From: Alphaproteobacteria bacterium
GTDB taxonomy: Bacteria; Pseudomonadota; Alphaproteobacteria; Rhizobiales; Beijerinckiaceae
Assembly (NCBI GenBank): GCA_016870035.1
Contig: VGCJ01000001.1
Coordinates: forward strand, 1-64,000
Length of the DNA: 64,000 nucleotides
Reading direction: 5' to 3'
Shown: in pieces, positions 38,528 through 62,226 of the stretch
Numbering within the stretch: position 1 is the stretch's first letter
Layout of the letters: each line of letters starts with the position of its first letter
The notes under the pieces: model-generated
The model's input: only the letters and a program-made list of their open reading frames with translations
Databases searched by the model: none
Told to the model about the DNA's origin: nothing
Made by a program: the position numbers and the translations under genes

Positions 38528-39061
38528 TCAAAGCGCCTCGGCACCCCGGCTCATTGCGGCAATGCCGGTGCGGGACACCTCCGAGAGACCAAGGCCCGCC
38601 ATCACGCGAATGAAACGCTCGATTTCCTCGCTGTCGCCGGTAAGCTCGAACACGAAGGAGTTGAGTGTTGCATCAAGCGAACGTGCGCCAAAAGCCGCCG
38701 CAATGCGCAACGCCTCACTCCGACTATCACCTTTGCCGATCACTTTGACGAGCGCCAATTCACGCTCAACCGCATCGCCTTTTGCCGTAAGATCAACAAC
38801 GCGATGAACGGGCACCAGCCGATCAAGCTGGTGTTTGATCTGTTCAATCACCATCGCGGTGCCAGTTGTCACAATGGTGATGCGCGAGACATGTTTTTCA
38901 TGCTCGGTCTCGGACACTGTGAGGCTTTCGATATTATAACCGCGCCCGGAAAAAAGGCCCGCGATACGCGCGAGAACACCGGGCTCATTGTCAACGAGAA
39001 CCGAGAGTGTGCGGCGTTGCGGCGGCGTATCAATCGGGGCATCGGAATAGTGGCTTTTCAT
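38528..39061 (-). CDS. ilvH: acetolactate synthase small regulatory subunit
   Basis: 177 residues. The ACT domain (RTLSVLVDNEPGVLARIAGLFSGRGYNIESLTV-type; key GVLARIAGLFSGRGYNI) binds valine, and the C-terminal half activates the catalytic subunit. IlvH controls the enzyme made by ilvB, about 0.75 kb upstream on the same strand; a glutathione S-transferase gene is inserted between the two. Length and motifs are normal. Confidence 0.95.
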   Translation of the reverse strand: MKSHYSDAPIDTPPQRRTLSVLVDNEPGVLARIAGLFSGRGYNIESLTVSETEHEKHVSRITIVTTGTAMVIEQIKHQLDRLVPVHRVVDLTAKGDAVERELALVKVIGKGDSRSEALRIAAAFGARSLDATLNSFVFELTGDSEEIERFIRVMAGLGLSEVSRTGIAAMSRGAEAL

Positions 39062-39089: not shown

Positions 39090-39770
39090 CTACCGGAACG
39101 CACCGATCGAAGGCTCATCGACTTCGTCATGCGGAACAATTTGTGTGTTTTCCATCGCCGCCTTATGCCATTCGACAAAAGCGGGATGATTGAAGATTGC
39201 ATCCATATAGGCGCGAATCACCGGATCGACTTTGATGGAATAAGTCTGGAAGCGCGAAACAAGCGGCGCATACATCGCATCCGCTGCGGTGAATGCACCA
39301 AACAAGAACGGACCCTCACCTGACGGTTTACCGAAACGCTCGATGGCTTGCTTTAAAATGCTCGTTGAACGCGCAACATCTTTTGCGACAAGTTCACCAC
39401 GATCCATCTTAGCATAGCGTTTGCGCAAATTCATTGGGCATGCGGCACGAAGACCACGAAAACCCGCATGCATTTCATTCGCAATGACCCGCGCGAACGC
39501 ACGCGCTTTGATGTGTTTCGGCCAAATCGCTTTTTCAGGAAAGCGATCGGCCACATATTCCATGATCGCAAGCGACTCCCACACCGTCACATCACCATCA
39601 ACAAGGATTGGCACAGTTGAGCCTGCCTGATAGACATTCACACGAGGACGGAATTCAGGCGTATGGAGAGGAATGAGATCCTCTTCAAACGCGATATGAT
39701 GCACCTTCAACAAAATCCATGGCCGAAGCGACCATGACGAATAGGCTTTTGTGCCAATGGCGAGTTTCAT
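39090..39770 (-). CDS. glutathione S-transferase family protein
   Basis: 226 residues. N-terminal thioredoxin-like domain beginning MKLAIGTKAYSSWSLRPWIL, with STVPILVDGDVTVWESLAIMEY (the Pro-x-Leu and Glu-Ser glutathione-binding positions), and a C-terminal helical domain. The SSWS loop provides a serine at the usual catalytic position. Substrate is unknown. It sits between ilvB and ilvH and is probably cotranscribed with them, which is curious for a detoxification enzyme. Confidence 0.88.
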   Translation of the reverse strand: MKLAIGTKAYSSWSLRPWILLKVHHIAFEEDLIPLHTPEFRPRVNVYQAGSTVPILVDGDVTVWESLAIMEYVADRFPEKAIWPKHIKARAFARVIANEMHAGFRGLRAACPMNLRKRYAKMDRGELVAKDVARSTSILKQAIERFGKPSGEGPFLFGAFTAADAMYAPLVSRFQTYSIKVDPVIRAYMDAIFNHPAFVEWHKAAMENTQIVPHDEVDEPSIGAFR

Positions 39771-39811: not shown

Positions 39812-41584
39812 TCACACAAGCGCTTTGCCCTTGACGTCGATTACATTGCCTATATCCACCCCAGCATCGTCGCTAAGGTCATTGAGCAACATTTCATTAT
39901 GGGCCTTGCCCGACGGAATCATCGGGAAACAATTTTCCATCTTCTCCACATGGCAGTCGAAAATCACAGGCTTTGGTGAAGCGATCATTTCGCGGATCGC
40001 GTCATCAAGCTTTGCAGGATCATTGCAGCGAATGCCACGCGCACCATAGGCTTCGGCGAGTTTCACGAAATCGGGCAATGAGTCTGAATAGCTTTCCGCA
40101 TAACGCGAGCCGTGCAGCAATTCCTGCCATTGGCGCACCATTCCCATATATTCATTGTTCAGAATAAAAATCTTCACTGGCAACCGATATTGAACCGCTG
40201 TAGACATTTCCTGAATATTCATGAGGATCGAAGCTTCACCCGCAATATCAATCACGAGTTTACCGGGATGTGCCATCTGCGTTCCAATCGCAGCAGGCAA
40301 ACCATAACCCATTGTTCCCAAACCGCCCGATGTCATCCAACGATTGGGGCTTTCAAAACGGAAATATTGAGCGGCCCACATTTGATGCTGGCCAACTTCG
40401 GTTGTGATATAGGGATCCATATCTTTGGTGAGCGCATAAAGACGCTCAACCGCATATTGCGGTTTGATCACCTTGTCAGAACCACGATAAGCCAAACACT
40501 TGCGCGCTTGCCAAGTTTTGATTTCACTCCACCATGGATCAAGGCGCTTACAATCCGGCGCTTTATCGAGCACCTTCCATTCTGCAAGCATGCTTTTGAG
40601 TATATGACCGCAATCGCCGACAATCCCGATATCCGCCTTCACATTTTTATTGATCGATGACGGATCAATATCGACATGAATCTTTTTGGAATTCGGCGAG
40701 AACGCATGTAAACGACCGGTGATGCGGTCATCAAAACGCGCGCCAATGCAGATCATCACATCGCAATCATGCATCGCGAGATTGGCTTCATAAGTGCCGT
40801 GCATGCCGAGCATGCCAAGCCATTGCGGATCGGCCGCCGGATAAGCACCAAGCCCCATCAAAGTTGATGTAATCGGATAGCCCGTCAAACGAACAAGCTC
40901 ACGCAAAGTGGCTGAAGCTTCGGTGCCCGCATTGATCACGCCGCCGCCCGTATAAAACACAGGCTTCTTTGCACCCGCCATCAACTTCACAGCGGCGCGA
41001 ATTTTCTCGATGTCGCCTTCCACTTGCGGGCGATAGGTCTTGTGCTGATTGTCCTTCGGACGATCATATTTGCCCATCGCGAATTGCACGTCTTTCGGAA
41101 TATCAACCACAACCGGACCCGGACGTCCGTTCGACGCGACATAGAAAGCTTCGTGCAGAATGCGCGGCAAATCCTCAACAGAGCGCACGAGATAATTATG
41201 CTTCGTGCAATGTCGCGTGATGCCGACCGTGTCGCATTCTTGGAAGGCGTCGGAGCCGATGAGATGGGTCGGCACCTGACCGGTGATGCACACAAGCGGA
41301 ATGGAATCGAGCATCGCATCCGTCAACCCAGTCACGGCATTGGTCGCACCAGGGCCGGAGGTTACGAGCACGCAGCCGACTTTGCCAGATGAGCGCGCAT
41401 AGCCTTCAGCGGCGTGAACTGCGCCCTGCTCATGGCGGACAAGGACGTGTTTCACTTTGTCCTGATGAAACATCGCGTCATAAATTGGCAGAACCGCCCC
41501 GCCGGGATAGCCGAAAATATGCTCGACCCCCTGATCCTGCAGGGCTTTGATCACCATTTCCGCACCGCTCATCGTCTCTGTCAT
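39812..41584 (-). CDS. ilvB: acetolactate synthase large catalytic subunit
   Basis: 590 residues. ThDP enzyme condensing pyruvate units to acetolactate or acetohydroxybutyrate. Catalytic Glu region YPGGAVLPIYD and HEQGAVHAAEGYARSSG at the N-terminus; FAD/central domain with FDDRITG; ThDP-Mg motif AGEASILMNIQEM ... ILNNEYMGMVRQW. The Mg-binding position usually Asp in GD(G/A) reads Glu here. A GTG-started leader peptide with Ile-Leu-Val-Val and a terminator precede the gene, so attenuation is likely. Confidence 0.96.
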   Translation of the reverse strand: MTETMSGAEMVIKALQDQGVEHIFGYPGGAVLPIYDAMFHQDKVKHVLVRHEQGAVHAAEGYARSSGKVGCVLVTSGPGATNAVTGLTDAMLDSIPLVCITGQVPTHLIGSDAFQECDTVGITRHCTKHNYLVRSVEDLPRILHEAFYVASNGRPGPVVVDIPKDVQFAMGKYDRPKDNQHKTYRPQVEGDIEKIRAAVKLMAGAKKPVFYTGGGVINAGTEASATLRELVRLTGYPITSTLMGLGAYPAADPQWLGMLGMHGTYEANLAMHDCDVMICIGARFDDRITGRLHAFSPNSKKIHVDIDPSSINKNVKADIGIVGDCGHILKSMLAEWKVLDKAPDCKRLDPWWSEIKTWQARKCLAYRGSDKVIKPQYAVERLYALTKDMDPYITTEVGQHQMWAAQYFRFESPNRWMTSGGLGTMGYGLPAAIGTQMAHPGKLVIDIAGEASILMNIQEMSTAVQYRLPVKIFILNNEYMGMVRQWQELLHGSRYAESYSDSLPDFVKLAEAYGARGIRCNDPAKLDDAIREMIASPKPVIFDCHVEKMENCFPMIPSGKAHNEMLLNDLSDDAGVDIGNVIDVKGKALV

Positions 41585-41639
41585 CGTCGTCTCTCCGTGC
41601 CGGCCCGTTTGGGAAGTCTGGGGTTCGGCTTTAAGGCAA

Positions 41640-41665
41640 TAAAAAACCCCCTGTCCGGAGGGGGT
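41640..41665 (-). terminator. attenuator terminator in ilvB leader
   Basis: On the minus strand, ACCCCCT/AGGGGGT stems around a six-base loop and is followed by TTTTTTAT, about 55 bases before the ilvB ATG. Its 5' arm CCCCCTCC (complement of 41657-41664) can instead pair with GGAGCGGGG (complement of 41706-41714) inside the leader peptide, giving an antiterminator. Confidence 0.88.
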
Positions 41666-41695
41666 CGGTTAAGCGCCAGTCTCGGGATTAACGGA

Positions 41696-41749
41696 TCAAA
41701 ATCCGCCCCGCTCCTGACGCCCCATAACTACAAGAATGGTCGTGCGCAC
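41696..41749 (-). CDS. ilvL: ilvB leader peptide
   Basis: Seventeen codons starting with GTG and preceded by AGGAG: (M)RTTILVVMGRQERGGF, then TGA. Codons 5-8 are Ile-Leu-Val-Val, the three end products of the pathway. A ribosome stalled there leaves codons 12-15 (GGAGCGGGG) free to pair with the terminator's 5' arm; normal translation frees the terminator. This is the classical ilv attenuation layout. The lack of an ATG explains why gene finders miss it. Confidence 0.85.
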   Translation of the reverse strand: MRTTILVVMGRQERGGF

Positions 41750-41833
41750 CGCGCCTCTCCTATTAATTTCGCGCGGGAACGTAAGCCGGAAGACGCGGAT
41801 CGTCAAGGGGGTAACAGATCACCGCCATCAGCG

Positions 41834-42097
41834 CTATCGACCATGTGATTGCATATCAAGATGCGCACGCAACACCTCATTAATGCGCGTCTGCCAGCCT
41901 GGGCCCTCTGAACGAAAAGCAGACAGAACATCGGCATCGAGCCGTATGGTCGTTGAAACCTTGGGTTCATCCAAAGGCGGCCGCCCGCGTCGAACAGGGA
42001 CTTTTGCAAAAATCGCCTGCCATTCCGGCGTGGAAAGGTCGGGCGCATCATCAGGATCTTGCCAGTCGCTTTCCAAATTTTTCTTGTTCACGCTCAT
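41834..42097 (-). CDS. brnA: BrnA-type antitoxin
   Basis: 87 residues. Acidic linker (DWQDPDDAPDLSTPEWQAIF) followed by a ribbon-helix-helix DNA-binding end: KVSTTIRLDADVLSAFRSEGPGWQTRINEVLR, typical of BrnA, with the conserved GxGWQTRIN core. BrnA neutralises BrnT and represses the operon. Its start lies within the 3' end of brnT (about 47-base overlap), the common brnT-brnA order. Confidence 0.9.
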   Translation of the reverse strand: MSVNKKNLESDWQDPDDAPDLSTPEWQAIFAKVPVRRGRPPLDEPKVSTTIRLDADVLSAFRSEGPGWQTRINEVLRAHLDMQSHGR

Positions 42098-42329
42098 TAG
42101 CCTTCCTCAAGCTGATAATGCGACGCGCTCCCGCGCGCAAACTCCAAACCACGACAACCATACGATTATTCAAATATCCAACCGTTATGAAACGTGTTTC
42201 ATCATAAATAACGCGATCATCTTCGGCTGTTGTGTGTACAGTTTCGAAGACCCGAAAAGCGTGAGCCATATCCAAACCACGATCTGCGAGAGTGCGTCGG
42301 CGCTTTTCAGGATTAAATTCAATTTTCAT
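42051..42329 (-). CDS. brnT: BrnT-type toxin
   Basis: 92 residues from the ATG at 42329. BrnT is a small RelE-fold ribonuclease. The family patterns are present: EFNPEKRRRTLADRGLDMAHA at the start, VIYDETRFITVGYLNNRMVVVVW, and RIISLRKANEREQEKF. TTGACA stands about 27 bases before the ATG, suggesting a very short or absent 5' leader. The module lies between miaA and the ilvB leader and is intact by motif. Confidence 0.9.
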   Translation of the reverse strand: MKIEFNPEKRRRTLADRGLDMAHAFRVFETVHTTAEDDRVIYDETRFITVGYLNNRMVVVVWSLRAGARRIISLRKANEREQEKFGKRLARS

Positions 42330-42431
42330 TTTTTGTAGTAACAATAATTGGAAATGTCAAGGATCTTGTTGATCCAAGAAAAGCCTGATCGCACCAAAGC
42401 GTCCAGAAAGCGACGGATGCAAAGCGCTTAA

Positions 42432-49254: not shown

Positions 49255-49649
49255 CGCGTTTGTCGATTCGCCCAGGAATGAGGGGGGACCTTAGCTTGTC
49301 TTTCCCTGAAAAGGCAGATCGGAACCGGGCTCGTAAGCGCAGCTGTCCCCAATCGAATGCGAAAAGGGGCACGAAAAAGGCGGGCGAACCTCATGGTTTT
49401 GCCCTGCTCTTCCGTTTCTCGACCAGACACCTTATATTGCGACTGTTCTCGTAAGAGGACTATGACGATAAACTGTCATCAAAATAAACCTTTCGGACCC
49501 GGGGGCAGTACCCGGCGCCTCCACCAGAACCCATTGCGGCCTAAGCCGAAAAGACGGGCTCTGGCGGGGGCGAACTAGGATCGACGAGGGTGTAAAGGGT
49601 GGTCTTTCGTCCGGCATTGTACCACCGTTATCGGGCTAAACTTATAGTT

Positions 49650-49688
49650 GCCAATGACAACTATGCTCCGGTTGCCGTCGCTGCGTAA
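49650..49688 (+). CDS. tmRNA proteolysis tag reading frame
   Basis: GCC AAT GAC AAC ... GCG TAA encodes ANDNYAPVAVAA, the degradation tag added to stalled proteins. AND-N at the start is the SspB-binding part and the terminal VAA is recognised by ClpX. Translation resumes on this frame; there is no start codon. Confidence 0.93.
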   Translation, partial: ANDNYAPVAVAA

Positions 49689-49744
49689 TGCAGTGCCAAG
49701 ACCGAAATCAAAGCCCTTGCGCTTAGCCGCGTAAGGCGGGGCCC

Positions 49745-49782
49745 GGAGGCGCCTGGCAACAGAAGCCTCCACTTTTGTTTTT
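49745..49782 (+). terminator. terminator of ssrA
   Basis: GGAGGC (49745-49750) pairs with GCCTCC (49765-49770), followed by ACTTTTGTTTTT, just before the sspB gene. Confidence 0.8.
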
Positions 49783-61859: not shown

Positions 61860-61888
61860 TTGACAGAAAGTCGCAGCGGGGCCAGTGT
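61860..61888 (+). promoter_or_regulatory. putative promoter of the riboswitch transcript
   Basis: TTGACA (61860-61865) and CAGTGT (61883-61888) separated by 17 bases, a few bases before the cobalamin riboswitch. The -10 match is weak. Confidence 0.4.
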
Positions 61889-61899
61889 CCGTGTCTGTC

Positions 61900-62097
61900 G
61901 AGGTCCCTCCATCTGGGGGGTGAAAAGGGAACAAGGTGGTGCCCGTGAAAAGGAGCCAAGCCTTGGCTGCCCCCGCAACTGTAAGCGGCAAGTCTCGCGC
62001 CTCTAAGCCACTGGAATGTCTTTGAAAAAAGGACAACCCGGGAAGGCGGTGCGACACGCTAAAGCCGCGAGCCAGGAGACCTGCCTTGGCGTGACAC
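61900..62097 (+). promoter_or_regulatory. cobalamin riboswitch
   Basis: Conserved aptamer blocks are present in order: GGTGAAAAGGGAAC (from 61918), the core GCCCCCGCAACTGTAAGCGG (61969-61988), and the B12 box AGCCAGGAGACCTGCC (62070-62085). Distal arms include AAGCCTTGGCT and a GGAAGGCGGT segment. It lies upstream of DUF1636-cobW-cobN and should lower their expression when adenosylcobalamin is abundant. The rest of the 61.8-62.2 kb interval is the expression platform and leader. Confidence 0.95.
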
Positions 62098-62226
62098 GAA
62101 CGCATGTGCCCGGGCGGGGTGCCCCGGTCCTGTTCGCGGGATGAGTCCACAAAGGAACCATCCCCGACGTGGCGTATCGCCACTGCGCGCATCCCCGGGT
62201 CATCGCCCGCCTTTTACGATGAAGGG

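Follow-up and report, generated by a model that had tools for sequence, protein, structure and literature searches.

Attenuators in front of ilvIH and ilvB were reportedly predicted for Alphaproteobacteria by Vitreschak in 2004, and these share both their genes and their bacterial class with the locus described here. In Caulobacter crescentus, attenuation of ilvIH/ilvBN is described as working through a leader coding sequence (ilvL) that carries isoleucine and valine codons in tandem; the rho-independent terminator between it and ilvBN is blocked by stalled ribosomes (PMC4117421, citing Tarleton 1994). With reference to Vitreschak 2004, Corbino 2005 calls an alphaproteobacterial ilvB leader peptide previously described (PMC1273637), and a further paper lists an ilvIH cis-regulatory element of S. 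meliloti (PMC2573895). Besides these three sources, the titles listed in our literature search included none on alphaproteobacterial ilv attenuators.

The window, that is, the whole 64,000-nt stretch of a Beijerinckiaceae genome that was analysed (contig VGCJ01000001.1), carries a new and well-conserved instance of this already known attenuator type. It resembles the Caulobacter system in its run of branched-chain codons and its rho-independent terminator before ilvB, and stalled ribosomes may be expected to block that terminator here as well. The leader peptide with control codons, the overlapping hairpin and the terminator also have their counterparts in the trp attenuator of E. coli. A sequence-only reading of the locus had proposed that a GTG-started leader forms part of an ilv attenuator before ilvB, which the conservation of codons and terminator in relatives supports; it had borrowed the mechanism from enteric ilv operons, whereas Caulobacter ilvBN/ilvIH and the predictions for other Alphaproteobacteria offer a closer precedent. 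Our additions to the described systems are covariation, a codon bias and a link between ilvB leaders and the Rfam family Atu_C8, the last of which may already be known.

Leader, presumed promoter and terminator upstream of ilvB

All elements of the leader lie on the minus strand. The putative leader peptide ORF (41696-41749) opens with GTG at 41749-41747, comprises 17 codons and closes with a TGA stop at 41698-41696, giving the peptide VRTTILVVMGRQERGGF; the Shine-Dalgarno motif AGGAG (41757-41761) is placed 7 nt ahead of the GTG. Within the ORF, the control codons ATT CTT GTA GTT (41737-41726) specify Ile-Leu-Val-Val. Both the GTG-started 17-codon peptide behind AGGAG and its Ile-Leu-Val-Val run are thus present exactly as originally reported. 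The GTG is not an unusual start, since among 168 distinct leaders of the family, with starts chosen by a script, ATG was assigned 121 times, GTG 34 times and TTG 13 times. The three nearest genomes, whose IlvB proteins are 97-100% identical to that of the window over the available parts, keep the GTG and encode the peptide VRKILVVVMGRQERGG with a final L or F (the third was read by eye).

A presumed leader promoter consists of the -35 element TTGACG (41801-41806) and the -10 element TACGTT (41778-41783), separated by a 17-nt spacer and ending 28 nt upstream of the leader GTG. Because only three of its six letters match TATAAT, TACGTT was not listed by a consensus scan, and both elements are backed by their recurrence in relatives. 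Sufficient upstream sequence was present for 93 of 168 leaders. Of these 93 loci, 81 had TTGAC within the 80 nt preceding the leader start and 44 had the full TTGAC-N-TANNNT pattern, whereas a control stretch gave 7 and 1 of 93, respectively.

Downstream of the ORF, an intrinsic terminator hairpin (41645-41666) with the stem GACCCCCT-loop-AGGGGGTT (-13.0 kcal/mol) runs into a T6 run (41641-41646), and 56 nt separate the T-run from the ilvB ATG. The segment CCCCCTCC (41664-41657) makes up the 5' strand of this hairpin and reaches into its loop. The claimed T6 terminator was accordingly found, as a GC-rich hairpin that is conserved and covaries in relatives. Between the control codons and the terminator lies a long hairpin (about 41671-41722) of the 1:2 or "pause" type, which overlaps the end of the leader ORF: it starts 3 nt past the last control codon, has a 9-bp outer stem and contains the leader stop codon. 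Its stability exceeded that of shuffled sequences with a z of -4.2 in the window and a median z of -4.3 across 165 leaders, 98.8% of which scored below -1 (3 of 168 leaders were dropped for want of a single-hairpin terminator). The attenuator had been called complete, with all parts visible; the parts then described are there, yet this wording was too strong because the large conserved hairpin at about 41722-41671 had been overlooked.

When the 250 nt upstream were subjected to dinucleotide shuffling, a Shine-Dalgarno motif with an ORF of 10-30 codons containing four consecutive Ile, Leu or Val codons arose in 8 of 3000 sequences, and the same with a terminator downstream of the ORF in 0 of 3000. 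A plain terminator next to a chance ORF was ruled out by these shuffles and by conservation. Riboswitch and T-box models gave no match at the locus at gathering score.

Gene neighbourhood

The order of genes is miaA, a BrnT/BrnA toxin-antitoxin pair, the leader, ilvB, a GST-like gene and ilvN. The presumed controlled gene, ilvB (39812-41584, minus strand; Pfam TPP_enzyme_N/M/C), encodes the large subunit of acetolactate synthase, and ilvN/ilvH (38528-39061, minus strand; Pfam ALS_ss_C and ACT_AHAS_ss) its small subunit. The two are possibly on the same transcript. Usually ilvB and ilvN adjoin; here the GST-like gene (39090-39770) stands between them. The BrnT/BrnA pair (41834-42344) shares the strand of the ilvB leader and lies between it and miaA, with the end of BrnA 84 nt from the leader start, and a similar frame end ahead of the leader is seen in one of the nearest relatives (L240). 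Elsewhere, the window holds an alphaproteobacterial (permuted) tmRNA at 49406-49773 (301.7 bits) and a cobalamin riboswitch at 61884-62103 (114.9 bits).

Conservation across the order

Thirty IlvB loci, the window's included, were chosen by the IlvB protein alone. An ORF scan wrote out leaders for 24 of them, again counting the window, with the same order of parts; MRTALIVVRRRQERAER, VRNILIVSGAPETGRS and MRVILIVTEAPLTGRP are examples from relatives. The leaders of the window and 22 relatives (23 in total; L017, whose terminator had been truncated, was left out of the 24) served to build a covariance model, which matched 202 of 297 genomes of the order, the source genome among them; the other 95 gave no match under strict filters. 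In a class-wide draw only 6 of 289 genomes matched, 4 of them in the window's family (including the window's own genome). The source genome contains one strong match (81.6 bits), the next having E = 4. The model also recognised 63 of the best 80 named IlvB loci, with Bosea, Methylobacterium, Agrobacterium, Rhizobium, Ochrobactrum, Caulobacter and Phenylobacterium among the matching ones; the nearest named IlvB found, 89% identical, belongs to a Hyphomicrobiales metagenome-assembled genome (L139). Caulobacter, whose locus L206 is thus matched by a model made from the window and its relatives, belongs to another order than the window's organism.

Every one of the 168 distinct leaders contained an ORF rich in Ile, Leu and Val codons, with at least three of these within five codons (at least four in 153, three in the other 15), and ilvB lay directly downstream in 166. 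These ORFs were read with added upstream sequence; in the model span alone 49 leaders had no ORF and 19 a poor one, because the start lies upstream of the model. Two genomes, G282 (L106) and G245 (L229), each carry two leaders about 2.7 kb apart, with an ilvB-like frame after both leaders in the former and after the one checked in the latter, which suggests tandem ilvB units.

Both the long hairpin and the terminator covary across relatives. When the structure of the window was counted on 95 aligned leaders, paired cells made up 87.2% in the outer helix of the long hairpin, 74.1% in its middle helix and 84.1% in the terminator helix, counts that lean towards the structure because the model to which the alignments were fitted has a similar one. 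In relatives, the innermost helix of the long hairpin formed in only 50.5% of cells. All 8 pairs of the outer helix show double changes, and the covariation score over the 95 leaders was 0.317, compared with 0.142 for shuffled and 0.040-0.091 for slid alignments. In another set, of 74 distinct leaders, the model's structure scored 0.422 compared with 0.151 after shuffling.

Choice of control codons

The control codons are conserved rare codons. Counted in 134 non-redundant leaders and in the first part of 132 downstream ilvB genes, valine was encoded by GTA in 165 of 226 leader positions, as against 2% in ilvB, and leucine by CTT or CTC in 161 of 173 leader positions, as against 39%; the leader figures may be inflated, as a sequence model had served to find the leaders. 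Without the model, 24 leaders were located from the position of IlvB by an ORF scan that itself sought runs of Ile, Leu and Val; these likewise used GTA for 30 of 38 valines and CTT or CTC for 21 of 24 leucines. GTA and GTG are read by one shared tRNA, and so are CTT and CTC. Biased control codons are attributed in the literature to the selective charging of isoacceptors (PMC1183508).

The candidate antiterminator

In the sequence-only reading, GGAGCGGGG inside the leader ORF pairs with CCCCCTCC as an antiterminator. Both segments have the sequences and positions claimed for them (GGAGCGGGG at 41714-41706 on the minus strand). The candidate strand GGAGCGGGG is part of the leader coding region and of the 5' side of the long hairpin, unlike in E. 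coli trpL, where the pairing strand is found after the leader's stop codon. With the terminator arm, GGAGCGGGG forms a duplex of -13.9 to -15.6 kcal/mol, and only four terminator arms from other leaders pair better with it.

In an equilibrium fold of the full leader, the terminator remained at 0.95 even with a stalled ribosome, and near 0.95 in most leaders, among which L010 and L017 had been given a wrong terminator by automatic selection. Full-leader folding does not discriminate here, because the terminator of E. coli trpL also stays at 0.92, and only the fold of a truncated transcript, lacking the last terminator arm, was retained, since equilibrium folding failed to separate stalled from free states. 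In this truncated fold of the window, 7 of 8 bases of the terminator 5' arm were paired when a ribosome was stalled on the last Val codon, 3 of 8 when it stood at the stop codon and none in the ribosome-free transcript, and a longer arm gave 9 of 10 in the stalled state against 6 of 10 at the stop codon. E. coli trpL, our control, behaved similarly (5 of 8 arm bases when stalled, none in the other two states). Across 132 leaders, at least five arm bases were paired in 58 in the stalled state, against 73.6 expected from shuffles, and in 63 in the stop-codon state (2 of 134 leaders were dropped).

In the 95 aligned leaders the eight pairs of the GGAGCGGGG:CCCCCTCC helix were formed in 45.9% of cases, compared with 45.8% after shuffling. 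Among 134 leaders (2 of 165 were dropped, then 29 of 163 for redundancy), a leader's own partners for the GGAGCGGGG pairing showed no excess over swapped ones (p 0.36), and such an excess was absent for all five segments tested, in a test that is weak because GGG and CCC motifs are conserved. A classical 2:3 antiterminator, with the hairpin's 3' arm as one partner, gained no support, its own pairing being worse than swapped (p 1.0). Family-wide, the G-rich/C-rich complementarity of the GGAGCGGGG segment to the arm was slightly greater than that of shuffled segments (mean z -0.40), and the whole region past the stalled ribosome was slightly less complementary to the terminator arm than shuffles (mean z +0.32). 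Of the features proposed to be shared by relatives, then, the control codons and the terminator pairing are conserved, and the antiterminator pairing does not covary. The GGAGCGGGG:CCCCCTCC pairing is energetically plausible in the window and is the best antiterminator candidate there, without covariation or own-over-swapped excess in relatives.

Relation to the Atu_C8 family

Among 20 named loci chosen from the 80, the Rfam family RF02502 (Atu_C8) lies on the ilvB leader in 11, including L200:1301-1420; the leaders covered come from Agrobacterium, Rhizobium, Sinorhizobium, Ochrobactrum and others. The family was found on the leader in 1 of 20 nearer loci (L020). In the window, Atu_C8 aligns to the leader over its full length and on the same strand with 18.5 bits, below Rfam's cut-off of 50, so that the window does not count as a member, although it is likely to be related to the family. 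It was the sole match in an Rfam search of 41560-41840 with E up to 10; sub-threshold matches to ASpks and PVX_3, obtained with 181 bases, were taken as chance. Rfam files Atu_C8 as a "Rhizobiales sRNA" gene, which differs from a cis-regulatory leader. Our literature search brought up one unrelated paper for Atu_C8 and nothing in print on its link with ilvB. The link may nevertheless already be known, because three sRNAs from the work of Wilms et al. have been noted to be leaders in 5' UTRs (PMC3738593).

Proposed mechanism and alternative explanations

Taken together, the locus is very probably an attenuator of the ilv type, in which ribosomes translating the leader govern transcription of the branched-chain amino acid gene ilvB and perhaps of ilvN. 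The leader, its codons, the hairpin, the terminator and the promoter-like elements were observed in the window, as were their positions and conservation, and established attenuators suggest how they may work together. A short transcript would start at the promoter at about 41806-41778, and the 17-codon leader would be translated at once. With charged Ile, Leu and Val tRNAs plentiful, the ribosome would move on to the stop codon within the long hairpin, the terminator (41666-41641) would form, and transcription would end prematurely with release of a short RNA of roughly 130 nt. With these tRNAs scarce, the ribosome is predicted to stall on ATT-CTT-GTA-GTT and to cover the 5' arm of the long hairpin; the downstream RNA, including a putative antiterminator stretch, would then be free, the terminator would not form in time, and ilvB would be transcribed.

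The same short RNA could instead act mainly in trans, as an sRNA or through its leader peptide, with cis attenuation being secondary. The filing of RF02502 as an sRNA gene that covers the leader in 11 of 20 named loci and in L020 fits such a role, as does the trans activity of a trp attenuator RNA and its peptide in the same order (rnTrpL and peTrpL of Sinorhizobium meliloti; PMC7298713). However, 166 of 168 leaders stand directly before ilvB and the two exceptions precede another gene, as a cis element should, and a purely structural sRNA would not need the conserved codons and reading frame; we consider this explanation improbable. It is very improbable that the terminator merely ends brnTA transcripts arriving from upstream and that the leader-like ORF arose by chance. 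The BrnA frame does end at 41834 on the same strand, 84 nt ahead of the leader start, and from there to the leader the consensus scan shows no further terminator on the minus strand, but the full combination of elements appeared in none of the 3000 shuffles, promoter-like elements that recur in relatives lie between brnA and the leader, and a like leader is present in the other 167 sequences.

For the identity of the antiterminator the balance is even. A different or lineage-specific structure would be a variant of the ilv attenuator favoured here and not exclusive of it, and it finds support in the GGAGCGGGG:CCCCCTCC pairing being without covariation, in the missing own-over-swapped excess for all five segments and in the conserved parts being the long hairpin and the terminator. 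Against it stand the strength of the pairing in the window (-13.9 kcal/mol), its formation in the truncated stalled fold, the slight family-wide excess in GGAGCGGGG complementarity (mean z -0.40) and the weakness of the swap test. We therefore retain the attenuator and leave its antiterminator unassigned, as GGAGCGGGG:CCCCCTCC does not covary and the truncated folds of the family do not exceed shuffles.

Leader copies before efflux genes

The two leaders that are not followed by ilvB (L089:121-235 and L134:121-235) precede transporters of the Bcr/CflA family of MFS proteins, both above the cut-off of TIGR00710. In the family concerned (f6), a close homologue of this MFS gene occurs in 15 of 81 genomes, and 9 of the 15 homologues (68-100% identity) have an ilv-type leader upstream on the same strand. 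These second leader copies before Bcr/CflA-type genes are at L089, L134, L302, L304, L305, L306, L308, L309 and L320. The other 6 homologues, at most 61% identical, have no leader on their own strand, and L322 shows a weak leader match on the strand opposite to the efflux homologue. Among the 10 genomes of f6 with extra model matches, G638 (L301) and G649 (L303) have no efflux gene there, and no clear leader was found at the extra matches L307, L310 and L311. In the f6 copies, for example MMIENGMVVVGARMGTAA, the control run is reduced largely to valine codons. A second family (f24) carries the leaders MKIAMVLIVVIERMGGMA and MKIAMVLVVVIKRMGRMV before an MFS gene in L223 and L224; TIGR00710 is the best NCBIfam match of these transporters, with scores of 162.5 and 173.2, below the cut-off of 200.9. 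On attenuation of Bcr efflux by a leader peptide, our literature search listed a single paper, apparently about Salmonella yqiC.

Tentatively, and with somewhat less than even confidence, we suggest that the ilv attenuator is a portable, codon-tuned module, built on rare isoacceptor-specific codons and copied before Bcr/CflA efflux genes in two other families of the order, in one of them with mainly valine codons left in the run, so that export may be switched on by a shortage of valyl-tRNA or by other causes of ribosome stalling, including translation-inhibiting drugs. A trans link of the trp leader with efflux has been published for Sinorhizobium meliloti (PMC7298713); if our suggestion is true, the copies would be its counterpart in cis.

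Implications

The covariation supports a single ilv attenuator architecture through much of the order. The occurrence of the Atu_C8 "sRNA" on an attenuator leader is useful for re-annotation, and the 168 distinct leaders form a set on which isoacceptor-tuned control codons and the antiterminator can be tested. The efflux-gene copies point to a possible recruitment of attenuators for functions other than amino acid synthesis. For the bacterium itself, the switch probably makes it possible to raise the synthesis of branched-chain amino acids solely when they are in short supply.
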